Source: Streptomyces sp. NBC_00223 (GTDB taxonomy: Bacteria; Actinomycetota; Actinomycetes; Streptomycetales; Streptomycetaceae). From it: a stretch of 64,000 nucleotides of DNA. Below the pieces are notes generated by a model. It had not been told where the DNA came from, ran no database searches, and saw only the letters and a program-made list of their open reading frames with translations. Shown here piece by piece: positions 42,447 through 47,365 of this stretch (within the stretch, counting starts at the first letter, position 1; each line of letters opens with the position of its first letter). The stretch lies in assembly GCF_036199905.1 (NCBI RefSeq), contig NZ_CP108109.1:4201501-4265500 (forward strand), in the 5' to 3' direction. The position numbers and the translations under genes are program-made.

Positions 42447-42986
42447 TCAGTCCTTGCGCTGGAACTCCTCTGTCGGGATGGCGACCGTGATGCCCTCCGG
42501 GAGGGGGAGGGGGACGGTCTCGCCGTAGATGAACTTCTGGTGGTTCTGGTACGTGCCGCCCTCGGGCCGGGTGTAGAGCAGGCACTCGGCGCGGAAGGGG
42601 TCGATGAGCAGATAGACGGGGACGCCGTAGGTCGCGTACTGGAGGAACTTGATCTCGTAGTCGTTGACGTCCTCCTTCGTGGACACGATCTCCACGGCGG
42701 CGAGCAGATCCTCGTACGAGTACGGCGTCGCGGCTCCCTCCTCCACGACCGCGATGTCCGGGCAACGGCCGCCCTCGCCGGGGAAGGTGAACAGCACGTC
42801 GGACAGGATCTGCCGTCGGCCGATTCCGGCGGCACGCAGGGCGTCATGGACCTCGAAGATGGTCCAGCTCTGCACATTGCTCTGCGGCGTCACGATGATC
42901 CGCCCCCCTACGACCTCGACCTTGAAACCCTCGAGATCCGTGGCCATGTGCTCGGCCTTGCCGTTCAGGACATCCGTCCACGTCAT
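42447..42986 (-). CDS. Uma2-family PD-(D/E)XK nuclease-like protein
   Basis: A 179-residue protein of the Uma2 (DUF820) family. The PD-(D/E)XK core is visible: CPDIAVVEE (Asp), VEIVSTKEDVNDYEIKFLQY (Glu and Lys), then YGVPVYLLIDP. Such proteins are abundant in streptomycetes and cyanobacteria and have no clear role. The ATG at 42986 was chosen for the AGGAGG six bases upstream; a start at 43004 adds six residues. It lies between aspS and metG, probably as a monocistron. Confidence 0.85.
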   Translation of the reverse strand: MTWTDVLNGKAEHMATDLEGFKVEVVGGRIIVTPQSNVQSWTIFEVHDALRAAGIGRRQILSDVLFTFPGEGGRCPDIAVVEEGAATPYSYEDLLAAVEIVSTKEDVNDYEIKFLQYATYGVPVYLLIDPFRAECLLYTRPEGGTYQNHQKFIYGETVPLPLPEGITVAIPTEEFQRKD

Positions 42987-43047
42987 CGCGGGCCTCCTGG
43001 GCATATCCGTCTCCCGTGATCAGACAGTACCGTACGTAGCAGCGTGA

Positions 43048-44778
43048 CTACGCAGCTACTTCGGGGTCGCCGCCGAAGCGGGTGGTGTAGGAGTCGAGGT
43101 CTTCTTCCGTGATCTTGGCGAAGAGGACCGGGGGGACCGTGAAGGGCGTGCCGGCCGGGACCGCGGTGAGGGCGCGGGCCTCCTCCGGGGTGATCCAGGG
43201 CGCGTCGTCCGAGGGCAGCGCGAAGGCCGACCGCATGGCGGCCGCGGAGGACGGGATGAAGGGCGCGGAGACCACCGCGTAGAGCCGGATCAGATTCATC
43301 GCCGTGCGCAGCGTGAGCGCCGCGCCCTCGGGATTCGTCTTGATCTCCAGCCAGGGGGCCTTCTCCTCCAGGTAGGAGTTGCCCGCGCTCCACAGCGCCC
43401 GCAGCGACTGGGCCGCCTTGCGGAACTGGACGGCCTCCAGATGCCCCTCGTACTCCGCGAGCAGCCCGGCGATCTGCTCGCCGAGCTTGGCCTCGGCGTC
43501 CCCGGCGACGCCGCCCGCGGGCACCTCGTCCCCGAACCGCTTGCGCGAGAAGGACAGCACCCGGTTGACGAAGTTGCCGAGGGTGTCGGCGAGGTCCTTG
43601 TTGACGGAGGACGCGAACAGCTCCCACGTGAAGGACGTGTCGTCGGACTCCGGCGCGTTGGCGATCAGGAAGTAGCGCCAGTAGTCGGCCGGCAGCAGCT
43701 CCAGGGCCGCGTCGGTGAAGATGCCGCGGCGCTGCGAGGTGGAGAACTTCCCGCCGTAGTAGTTGAGCCAGTTGAACGCCTTGACGAAGTCGACCTTCTT
43801 CCACGGCTCGCGGGTGCCCAGCTCGGTCGCCGGGAACATCACGGTGTGGAAGGGGACGTTGTCCTTCGCCATGAACTGGGTGTAGCGGACGGTGTCGTCC
43901 GCCTCGTACCACCACGACTTCCAGTCCCGCGTCTCGCCGGCGGGCGCGGCGTCCGCCCACTCCTTGGTGGAACCGATGTACTCGACCGGGGCGTCGAACC
44001 AGACATAGAAGACCTTGCCCTCGGCGGCCAGTTCGGGCCAGGTGTCGGCGGGGACGGGGACACCCCATTCGAGGTCGCGGGTGATCGCCCGGTCCTGGAG
44101 CCCTTCGGTGAGCCACTTGCGGGCGATCGAGGACGCCAGGGTCGGCCAGTCCTCGCTGTTGGCGTCGATCCACGCCTCGACCTCGCCGGCCAGCTTCGAC
44201 TGGAGGAGGAAGAGATGCTTGGTCTCGCGGACCTCCAGGGCGCTGCTGCCGCTGATCGCCGAGCGCGCGTCGATCAGATCGGTCGGGTCGAGCACCCGGG
44301 TGCAGTTCTCGCACTGGTCGCCGCGCGCCTTGTCGTAGCCGCAGTGCGGGCAGGTGCCGACGATGTAGCGGTCGGGCAGAAAGCGCTCGTCGGTCAGCGA
44401 GTAGACCTGGCGGATCGCCCGCTCCTCGATGAAGCCGTTCTCCTGGAGGCGGCGGGCGAAGCGCTGGGTGATGTCGACGTTCTGCGCCGAGGAACTGCGG
44501 CCGAAGTAGTCGAAGGACAGCTCGAAGCCGTCGTAGATCGCCTTCTGCGCGTCGTGCGCCTGGGCGCAGAAGACGTCGACCGGCAGTCCGGCCTCCTTGG
44601 CGGCGAGTTCGGCGGGAGTGCCGTGTTCGTCGGTCGCGCAGATGTAGAGCACCTCGTGGCCGCGCTGGCGCAGATACCGCGAGTAGACGTCCGCCGGGAG
44701 CATGGACCCCACCATGTTGCCCAGGTGCTTGATCCCGTTGATATAGGGCAGGGCGGAGGTGATGAGGTGACGAGCCAT
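43048..44778 (-). CDS. metG: Methionyl-tRNA synthetase
   Basis: A 576-residue class I synthetase that charges initiator and elongator tRNA-Met. The HIGH signature is HLGN (residues 18-21), a zinc knuckle has two Cys pairs (CPHC, CENC), and the KMSKS loop is KFSTS at 344-348, so the second Lys is Thr. The anticodon-binding helical domain (about 400-560) lacks a C-terminal tRBD. The variant loop is known to me in other actinomycete MetRS. The ATG has GGGAGCAG ten bases upstream. Loop changes of this sort can alter ATP turnover and inhibitor sensitivity. Confidence 0.95.
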
Positions 44779-44924
44779 TGCAGGCTGCTCCCATTTCGTT
44801 GCGCGGAGTGAATAAAGCGTCTACGGACTGTCAATATCGTATCCGACCGAACGGGCGTATCCGTCGTGGTTTTCCGCCCCCCGGACGGGCTGTACGGTCC
44901 CCCCTGAAGATCACCCCGCGTGAC

Positions 44925-44958
44925 TGCACGTGCACATGCACGTGCACATGCACGTGCC
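44925..44958. promoter_or_regulatory. Three 12-bp-spaced TGCACGTGCA palindromes
   Basis: TGCACGTGCA is at 44925-44934 and 44937-44946 and, with one change (final C), at 44949-44958: 10-bp palindromes with a strict 12-bp period, ending 55 bases before the DUF397 start. A related array lies between the ATPase and XRE genes. They look like a cooperative operator. Confidence 0.75.
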
Positions 44959-45013
44959 TCCCTTACGAGTTATCATCTCCGGTACCAGACAAGGCACTTG
45001 GTAGGAGTGGCTG

Positions 45014-45250
45014 ATGCGCCGGACGCACAATGGAATGGCCGCAGCGGACCTTGCGGACGCGGTCTGGCAGAAGAGCGCCCACAGCAATGCCAATGGAACG
45101 TGCATGGAGTTCGCGGCGCTGCCCGACGGCGAGGTCGCCGTGCGCAATTCACGCTTTCCGGACGGTCCCGCGCTGATTTACACCCGGGCCGAGATCGAAT
45201 CGATGATCATCGGTGTGAAGGCAGGCGAATTCGACCATCTTGCGCTGTAA
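45014..45250 (+). CDS. DUF397 protein
   Basis: A 78-residue DUF397 protein (WQKSAHSNANGTCMEFAALP, then VAVRNSRFPDGPAL). DUF397 genes in streptomycetes are paired with XRE-DUF5753 regulators and work as antagonists in at least some cases. Here the XRE partner is at 45962, with an anti-sigma-like ATPase between them on the other strand. The ATG at 45014 follows TAGGAG with seven bases spacing. The operator array upstream links it to that regulator. Confidence 0.9.
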   Translation: MRRTHNGMAAADLADAVWQKSAHSNANGTCMEFAALPDGEVAVRNSRFPDGPALIYTRAEIESMIIGVKAGEFDHLAL

Positions 45251-45300
45251 CGGTCGGAAGTAATGGCGACATAAGGGCCGGTAATCCCGGCCGTCGGCCG

Positions 45301-45780
45301 CTAATCCCGGCCGCCGCCGGGCGCGAGGAAGAGTGCCCAGACGACTTTTCCGGCCCCGCTCAGCGGGTGCCAGCCCCAGTTCTCGCTGAACGAGTCGACC
45401 AGGTGCAGTCCGCGGCCGGTCTCGGCCACGAAATCGGGGTCCTTGGTGACCGGCGCGACCCCGCTGGGGTCACGCACCGCACACACCACCCGTGAGGTCC
45501 ACCGGACCAGGCTCAGCCGTACGGGCGCGCCGGCGGTACCGACCGGCACCGCGTAGCGCAGCGCGTTGGTGACGAGTTCGGAGGCGACCAGCTCCATGGA
45601 GTCGCGCAGCCCGGAAAGGTCCCAGCGCTGCAACGTACTGCGGGTGAACTGGCGTGCTTCGCGCACCGATTCGAGGGCGGCGGGGAGTTCGCAGGTCGCT
45701 CCGTTGCCGGCGGCGAGCCGCTCGGGCGCGAGCACACCCTGCCATAACGGCTCCAGCACGGCCGCGGCCTCAGCCCTCAT
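45301..45780 (-). CDS. RsbW-like ATP-binding protein
   Basis: A 159-residue GHKL ATPase of the SpoIIAB/RsbW anti-sigma type. Boxes N (LVASELVTNALRYAV), G1 (AVRDPSGVAP) and G2 (ETGRGLHLVDS) are visible. The ATG at 45780 follows CGGGGGC; a longer form starting at 45858 would run through the operator array and was rejected. In streptomycetes these proteins accompany DUF397/XRE pairs, as in whiJ- and aba-type loci. It lies convergent to DUF397 and divergent from XRE. Confidence 0.85.
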   Translation of the reverse strand: MRAEAAAVLEPLWQGVLAPERLAAGNGATCELPAALESVREARQFTRSTLQRWDLSGLRDSMELVASELVTNALRYAVPVGTAGAPVRLSLVRWTSRVVCAVRDPSGVAPVTKDPDFVAETGRGLHLVDSFSENWGWHPLSGAGKVVWALFLAPGGGRD

Positions 45781-45835
45781 ACGTGCCCCCGAAGTATCTG
45801 CACAGCCACCATGCTCATGGATCAGTACCCCGCGA

Positions 45836-45882
45836 TGCAAGAGCGTCTGCACGTGCATCTGCAAGGAATTGATGCACGTGAC
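45836..45882. promoter_or_regulatory. TGCA-type operator array between ATPase and XRE genes
   Basis: TGCAAGAGCG (45836), TGCACGTGCA (45848), TGCAAGGAAT (45860) and TGCACGTGAC (45873) are spaced 12, 12 and 13 bases. Two are full or near palindromes and two are half-sites. The array starts 56 bases upstream of the ATPase start and ends 80 bases upstream of XRE. Confidence 0.65.
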
Positions 45883-45961
45883 GATGGAGAGTGACGGAAT
45901 GGGTACTGCGCGCAGTGCATTAGTGGCAGACTGCTGATGAGCTAAGGGCGGAGCGTGACCT

Positions 45962-46828
45962 ATGAGCGCAGGGCAGCCGGGAGGCGGGTCCATCGTGCGA
46001 CGAATGCTGCTCGGAGCGCAGCTGCGGCGGCTGCGTGAGTCCAGGGGCATCACCAGGGAGGACGCGGGCTACTCGATCCGCGCCTCCGAGTCGAAGATCA
46101 GCCGCATGGAGCTGGGCAGAGTCAGTTTCAAGGAGCGGGACGTCGCCGACCTGCTGACCCTGTACGGCGTCAGCGAGGAGGGCGAGCGACTGGCCATGCT
46201 CGGCCTGGTCCGGGAGGCCAACGCGGCCGGCTGGTGGCACGGATACGGCGAGGTGATGCCGACCTGGTTCCAGACGTACGTCGGTCTGGAGGAGTCGGCG
46301 GCGCTCATCCGTGTCTTCGAGGTCCAGTTCGTGCACGGCCTTCTCCAGACCGAGGAGTACATAAGGTCGGTGATCCGGCTTGGTCATCCCGAGGCAGCCG
46401 AACCCTGGGTGGAAAGACGAGTCGGTCTACGCCTGGAGCGGCAGAAGCTCCTCGTGTCGGAGCGGGCACCCCACTTCGTCGCGGTGATGGACGAGGGCGC
46501 GCTGCGACGGCCGTTCGGCGGCCGCGAGGTGATGCGCGACCAGGTCCGCCACATCCTGGAGGCCGCCGAGGCGCCCAATGTGGACGTACGGATCCTGCCG
46601 TTCTCGACCGGCGGGCACGCGGCGGGCGGCGGTCCCTTCACCCTGCTGAGCTTCCCCGAGTCCGACCTGCCCGACCTGGTCTATCTGGAGCAGCTCACCG
46701 GGGCGCTCTACATCGACAAGCACGACGAGGTCGTGGAGTACACCAAGGCGATGGACGCGCTCGACCGGGTGGCCCTGACCCCCGCCGAATCCGTGGACTG
46801 GCTGAATTCCCTCCAGCGCGAGCTGTGA
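45962..46828 (+). CDS. XRE-DUF5753 regulator
   Basis: A 288-residue regulator. The helix-turn-helix (LGAQLRRLRESRGITREDAG, then SIRASESKISRMELGRVSF) is followed by the DUF5753 domain (IRVFEVQFVHGLLQTEEYIR, RILPFSTGGHAAGGGPFTLL). This is the WhiJ-like class controlling development or secondary metabolism in Streptomyces; the actual function here is not known. It is divergent from the ATPase gene and probably binds the TGCACGTGCA sites in both promoters. The ATG start has no strong ribosome site. Confidence 0.9.
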   Translation: MSAGQPGGGSIVRRMLLGAQLRRLRESRGITREDAGYSIRASESKISRMELGRVSFKERDVADLLTLYGVSEEGERLAMLGLVREANAAGWWHGYGEVMPTWFQTYVGLEESAALIRVFEVQFVHGLLQTEEYIRSVIRLGHPEAAEPWVERRVGLRLERQKLLVSERAPHFVAVMDEGALRRPFGGREVMRDQVRHILEAAEAPNVDVRILPFSTGGHAAGGGPFTLLSFPESDLPDLVYLEQLTGALYIDKHDEVVEYTKAMDALDRVALTPAESVDWLNSLQREL

Positions 46829-46966: not shown

Positions 46967-47365
46967 TTGCAGCAGGGGGAACAGCGGCCGGAGCAGGCGA
47001 GCCGGCCCGGTGACGGCGTCCCGCCGCCGACCCCGTACGCCCGCACCCACCGGCGGGGCGGGGCGGTCGTCGTGGAGTTGCGCGGCGAGATCGACCTGGG
47101 CAGCGCCGGGCAGGTGGACCCGCATCTGACGGCCGCGGCGCTCTGGCCGCAGCCGCTGCTGGTCGTCCTCGACCTCGGCGCGGTGGAGTTCATCGACTGC
47201 TACGGCCTGTCGCTGCTGGTCCGCGCCCGGCACCAGGTGCTGGACAACGGCGGCCGGGTGCGGATGGTCTGCGTCCACCGGCCGACCAGGAAGCTGCTCG
47301 CCCTGACCGGACTCGACGGGCTCTTCCACCCGGTCCGCACGCTCGACGAAGCGCTCCTGCCGTAA
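46967..47365 (+). CDS. STAS-domain anti-sigma antagonist with Tyr at the phospho-Ser site
   Basis: A 132-residue STAS protein with about 25 extra N-terminal residues. The core is VVVELRGEIDLGSAGQV, then LVVLDLGAVEFIDCYGLSLL. In SpoIIAA-type antagonists the second residue of DSSG/DCSG is the regulated Ser; here it is Tyr79 (DCYG). The start is TTG, chosen because GAGAGGGA lies six bases upstream and no ATG or GTG in frame does better. The stop codon falls within the first unit of a 15-bp tandem array. A phosphorylation-blind antagonist is possible. Confidence 0.8.
   Translation: MQQGEQRPEQASRPGDGVPPPTPYARTHRRGGAVVVELRGEIDLGSAGQVDPHLTAAALWPQPLLVVLDLGAVEFIDCYGLSLLVRARHQVLDNGGRVRMVCVHRPTRKLLALTGLDGLFHPVRTLDEALLP

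Follow-up and report, generated by a model that had tools for sequence, protein, structure and literature searches.

Paired arrays with a 12-bp step as probable operators of a WhiJ-like XRE regulator at a conserved DUF397/HATPase locus

WhiJ9, a WhiJ paralogue of S. venezuelae, binds three direct repeats as measured by SPR, activates iosA from 113 bp upstream and probably represses itself (PMC10294661). For WhiJ, the model of Ainsa 2010, as cited in passages of PMC6262351 and PMC4255298, holds that the DUF397 partner keeps the repressor off DNA. The AbaA-like gene SCO3423 has a TTA codon and adjoins SCO3421, a widespread WhiJ paralogue (PMC4255298), and a 29-base sequence with a sigma-E site has been published for SCO3424 (PMC6767563). 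The XRE/DUF397 pairs Scr1/Scr2, which belong to the same domain families as the proteins described here, were studied by overexpression for antibiotic production, and the parts of the two papers drawn on here describe no operator (PMC6262351, PMC10364602); a toxin-antitoxin function was not supported for them (PMC6262351). Streptomycetes have many WhiJ/BldB/AbaA-type clusters, yet the literature searched yielded a defined DNA site for just one member of the family.

The locus presented here lies in a 64-kb stretch of DNA from Streptomyces sp. NBC_00223 (hereafter the window), and its features are collected in Table 1. It has the composition of a WhiJ-type cluster, the DUF397 and AbaA-like ATPase genes adjoining the XRE gene, and the XRE protein has the domain arrangement of the WhiJ family, with an N-terminal HTH_31 and a C-terminal DUF5753 both matched above the Pfam cut-offs. 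XRE scored 376.6 bits (cut-off 350) with NCBIfam NF058600, the Sco1979 family, a model that cannot decide between SCO1979 and SCO3421 because several paralogous XRE clades also score above its cut-off. The predicted structure of XRE has a mean pLDDT of 90.7, and its HTH domain resembles, in predicted fold, those of ClgR and restriction controller proteins. Part of the C-terminal DUF5753 model shows a weak likeness to the phospholipase-D fold (NgoAVII R-protein, SauUSI), these matches having probabilities of 0.97-0.99, E-values >0.03 and a query TM of about 0.35-0.38. A sequence search of the PDB gave no relative of XRE or DUF397, PADLOC gave no match to a defence system, and HATPase has a weak match to NCBIfam RsbA that falls below the cut-off. 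In total, the genome holds 38 DUF5753 and 47 DUF397 matches.

Table 1. Coordinates of the features of the locus, counted from the first base of the window.
Feature	Position	Strand	Description or evidence
Array 1	44925..44958	+	three 10-bp TGCACGTGC(A/C) units, 12-bp period, 5' of DUF397
TATCAT, candidate -10 of the DUF397 promoter	44971..44976	+	conservation; putative promoter function
DUF397 gene, BldB-like small protein, SCO3424-type	45014..45250	+	Pfam PF04149, E=7e-17
HATPase_c_2 gene (HATPase), AbaA-like, anti-sigma-type, SCO3423-type	45301..45780	-	Pfam PF13581, E=1e-13
TTA leucine codon, HATPase codon 12	45745..45747	-	sequence
Array 2	45836..45882	+	four TGCA[AC]G units; core TGCAAGNGC-NN-(N)TGCACGTGCA; between HATPase and XRE
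XRE-DUF5753 regulator gene (XRE), WhiJ-like, SCO3421-type	45962..46828	+	Pfam HTH_31, E=1e-15; DUF5753, E=9e-61

TTA codons make translation dependent on bldA, a developmental tRNA. The DUF397 and XRE genes have no TTA codon. All 30 Actinacidiphila loci have the HATPase TTA, as do 17 of 20 loci from Streptomyces and 17 of 26 from other genera, and among the matches listed it is codon 12. Its conservation suggests that translation of HATPase, the output gene, is tied to bldA. A STAS-domain gene (46967-47365, +) lies directly 3' of XRE and is near XRE in 19 of the 36 loci checked; its product could form a partner-switching pair with the anti-sigma-type HATPase. A Uma2-family gene with a putative restriction endonuclease fold (42447-43004, -) adjoins metG. 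Regulation of metG was considered as a role for array 1 and rejected, array 1 being kept where metG was not found in the surrounding stretch.

Array 1 is made of TGCACGTGCA (44925-44934), TGCACGTGCA (44937-44946) and TGCACGTGCC (44949-44958), joined by the linkers CA and CA. The units of array 2, TGCAAGAGCG, TGCACGTGCA, TGCAAGGAAT and TGCACGTGAC, start at 45836, 45848, 45860 and 45873, with spacings of 12, 12 and 13 and the linkers TC, TC and TGA. These positions agree with an earlier sequence-only reading of the same DNA, which had described three units with an exact 12-bp period and four sites in the second array; of these four, just one is a complete TGCACGTGCA, and the other three have the TGCA[AC]G half in common with it. 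That reading had also pointed to a matched distance of about 56 bases between each array and a start codon. Indeed, 55 bases separate array 1 from the DUF397 ATG (45014, +) and array 2 from the HATPase ATG (first base 45780, -), but the match is not kept outside Actinacidiphila: array-to-start distances are tight within this genus and variable in others, array 2 lying 53-58 bp from HATPase in Actinacidiphila and up to 229 bp elsewhere (53-229 overall), so the equality of the two distances is coincidental. Its suggestion that the sites occupy one DNA face does not hold, because with 10.5 bp per helical turn a step of 12 bp makes about 1.14 turns and rotates each unit by about 51 degrees. Since TGCA is self-complementary, the palindrome and direct-repeat readings are inseparable by sequence, as are binding of a dimer to a palindrome and of a monomer to a direct repeat; the conservation pattern fits direct repeats of one orientation, some units having an additional inverted half.

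Chains of at least three TGCA[AC]G units with steps of 11-13 bp occur in the window only as arrays 1 and 2, and 300 first-order Markov shuffles of the window produced none. Single TGCACGTGCA-like sites (at most 2 mismatches) are only mildly enriched in the window, with 53 found vs 36.6 +/- 6.1 expected, and periodic clustering is thus the significant feature. In the whole 7.96-Mb genome, TGCA-N8-TGCA-N8-TGCA is present at four places, two of which are the arrays, and a degenerate pattern of two units, allowing one mismatch, detected the arrays and two further places. Arrays of this type are essentially confined to this locus, which argues for a dedicated rather than a global regulator. Across the genome contigs, the exact array-1 pattern was found in 29 stretches, mostly from Actinacidiphila or Streptomyces and the remainder from unrelated taxa. 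A search of Rfam for an RNA element gave no match over 44700-46050, and a literature search for TGCACGTGCA gave no relevant bacterial paper among the matches listed.

Both arrays are conserved, being present in all 30 Actinacidiphila orthologous loci. When these were aligned by anchoring on the heptamer TTAT(C/G)AT, array 1 had a mean identity of 94.5%, its upstream flank one of 69.6% and its downstream flank one of 59.4%. For array 2, identity is 96.8% over the first 22 bp vs 71.5% and 69.6% for the flanks, and its second half is less conserved (80.8%). The exact pattern TGCACGTGCNNNTGCANG was found in 35/35 Actinacidiphila genomes, nearly always at the XRE/DUF397/HATPase locus. In a wider set of 83 genomes, covering Actinacidiphila, other Streptomycetaceae genera and one other family, array 2 (called from its core with at most 4 mismatches, at most 350 bp from HATPase) is present in 83/83 and array 1 in 82/83. 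The gene order DUF397/HATPase/XRE is kept in most of these genomes, and the orientation of array 2 relative to HATPase is constant among the matches listed. In some loci of other genera, the array-2 core is surrounded by extra sites in the HATPase-XRE interval, e.g. GTGCACGTGCACCATGG and GGATGCACGTGCATCC. The sequence-only reading had proposed one regulator for both genes, most likely the adjacent XRE, and had named the loss of the arrays from orthologous loci with the three genes as what would speak against it; the arrays and the three genes are kept together in 82-83 of the 83 genomes, which supports the proposal, as do the rearranged loci and the XRE paralogues described below.

In five genomes, a second XRE (56-60% identical) is encoded at another chromosomal place beside its own HATPase and DUF397 genes, which are separated by about 7 units of 12 bp, as in the run TGCAAGCACA-TC-TGCAATTACA-GT-CGTAAGTGCA-AG-GGTAAGTACA-TC-TGCACGTGCA-TC-TGCACGTGCA. 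An XRE clade of 44-48% identity, to which the paralogue at 7.55 Mb of the same genome belongs, has TGCAATTGCA-TC-GGGAATTGCA-TC-CGCAAGTGCG upstream of its own DUF397. A clade of 42-44% identity has a different dyad, CTGTAATTTACAG, and not a 12-bp array; in this clade, a conserved GGCAAGGTCC-N4-CTGTAATTTACAGAATC replaces the 12-bp array upstream of XRE. The recognition-helix regions also differ by clade, being IRASESKISRMELGRVSFK (at least 90% per position in 78 orthologues), IR(G/A)SHAKISRLELGRVGYK, IRAHASKISRMETAHVSLK and LDVTHATIRRMEKAEVGLK, and operator and recognition helix vary together among XRE paralogues (44-60% identical). Strong arrays accompany 15 of the 22 XREs with a DUF397/HATPase neighbour vs 0 of the 8 without (Fisher p = 0.002, for XREs at least 51% identical, with kin sequences uncorrected for phylogeny and a score threshold set post hoc). 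Autocorrelation on 30 XRE paralogues of the same genome gave no 12-bp signal, a result that is uninformative for lack of power because array 2 itself was missed too. As a tentative generalization, the WhiJ family may share an operator grammar in which half-sites at a 12-bp step stand 5' of the DUF397/ATPase partners, each paralogue having its own half-site and helix. Such a grammar is seen in three clades (TGCACGTGCA; long runs of TGYANNTRCA; TGCAATTGCA/CGCAAGTGCG) and is not universal, the fourth clade having its different dyad. If it were true, many insulated copies of one switch could run in one genome.

We consider it very probable that the adjacent WhiJ-like XRE has its cognate operators in the two arrays, at the DUF397 and HATPase promoters, with a preference for repression of both genes, relieved by DUF397. 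Seven genomes of two other genera have the order XRE>, <DUF397, <HATPase, and in these rearranged loci DUF397 and HATPase each keep an upstream array and XRE has none, so the arrays mark the DUF397 and HATPase promoters. Given this arrangement, it is improbable that array 2 serves mainly for XRE autoregulation and not for HATPase control, although in the usual gene order it lies between the two genes and WhiJ9 is a probable self-repressor (PMC10294661); the distances of array 2 do not discriminate between XRE and HATPase, both being constant within Actinacidiphila. Concerning the direction of control, TTAT(C/G)AT 3' of array 1 is 97.6% conserved vs 65.5% for the linker from the array to the -10 (30 loci, anchored on this heptamer), and TATCAT/TATGAT downstream of array 1 recurs across genera. 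If TTAT(C/G)AT is the -10, array 1 would cover the -35/spacer region, and in the rearranged genera TATCAT lies 5' of array 1; both positions fit repression better than activation. The same binder on the same operators could instead activate DUF397 and HATPase by substituting for a missing -35, as a sigma-70 promoter scan found no promoter and no TTGACA-type -35 at either gene, the distance from array to -10 is constant within Actinacidiphila, and WhiJ9 activates iosA (PMC10294661). Nevertheless, we regard activation as rather unlikely, since it would hardly work from an array downstream of TATCAT, if TATCAT is the -10, and since the distance from the last array-1 unit down to the -10 takes two values across genera, about 16 or 22 bp. 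In the preferred mode of repression, which is drawn from operator position, XRE would sit along the half-sites spaced by 12 bp and both promoters would be repressed. DUF397 protein, as it accumulates, would bind XRE and take it off DNA, much as in the model published for WhiJ/SCO4542, and this release could create a positive-feedback, self-reinforcing switch turning on DUF397 and HATPase, with the TTA codon placing HATPase translation under an additional gate, the bldA tRNA.

The binder itself is most likely XRE, the best candidate for both arrays given its place and its paralogues. It can be argued that the arrays serve some other, global transcription factor as operators and that XRE adjoins them by chance, the E-box-like core CACGTG being a generic motif and XRE a candidate binder. 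This is very improbable: such arrays are found at one locus only in 7.96 Mb, XRE paralogues elsewhere have related arrays beside their own partners, and no strong arrays accompany the related XREs that have no partner genes. Finally, array 1 reads in this genome as a 6-bp repeat of the hexamer TGCACR, and could be taken for a functionless simple tandem repeat. This reading appears hardly credible and already disfavoured, as the flanks diverge around a constant number and phase of units, substitutions fall mostly in linker positions, and array 2 does not have the form of a simple repeat.

The published 29-base sequence of SCO3424 has an exact match in one of the genomes compared, G249 (locus L236, position 3723), about 200 bp 5' of DUF397 (match from 3937), where DUF397 with its arrays is followed by HATPase and XRE. 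The best XRE of G249 is 66% identical and the next best 46%. On the basis of this match and of the TTA codon, which the AbaA-like gene of SCO3421-SCO3424 in S. coelicolor shares with HATPase (PMC4255298), the window locus is probably the ortholog of SCO3421-SCO3424. The sigma-E-site sequence shortly 5' of the DUF397 array in G249 is a hint of envelope-stress input in some streptomycetes. No description of arrays at SCO3421-SCO3424 was found in the literature searched, PMC4255298 and PMC6767563 among it. For one of the most widespread clusters, an operator defined by sequence and conserved throughout the family offers targets for binding, footprinting and reporter assays, and the arrays point to the partner genes as targets and hint at how parallel copies of the cluster could stay separate.

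Compared with the described systems, the locus encodes the same three protein types as WhiJ/SCO4542/SCO4544 of S. coelicolor, where, in the model given in the passages of PMC6262351 and PMC4255298, a DNA-binding repressor is freed by its DUF397 partner. Few streptomycetes have whiJ itself, whereas the window-type locus is widespread, and those passages leave the WhiJ operator undefined. The likeness to the iosA-whiJ9 operator is closer in its layout: a WhiJ-family XRE, three direct repeats of about 10 bp adjoining the regulator gene and a neighbour as the target, the WhiJ9 repeats having been assayed on 34-bp oligonucleotides, which is the length of array 1 (PMC10294661). At the arrays too, at least three repeats stand beside regulator and target. 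The two differ in that the WhiJ9 repeat is CGXXCTCAAC, with a spacing unstated in the text of PMC10294661, and in that binding was measured for WhiJ9, while here the comparison draws on genes and sequence. The array units are of the TGCA[AC]G type and do not match CGXXCTCAAC; the tandem WhiJ9 consensus had no match in the genome of the window and scattered matches in many genomes, none identified as whiJ9. This mismatch is expected, because CGXXCTCAAC is specific to the WhiJ9 paralogue. Taken together, the array pair appears to be a real, dedicated and deeply conserved operator pair of the direct-repeat kind bound by WhiJ9, and is suggestive of a wider family grammar.
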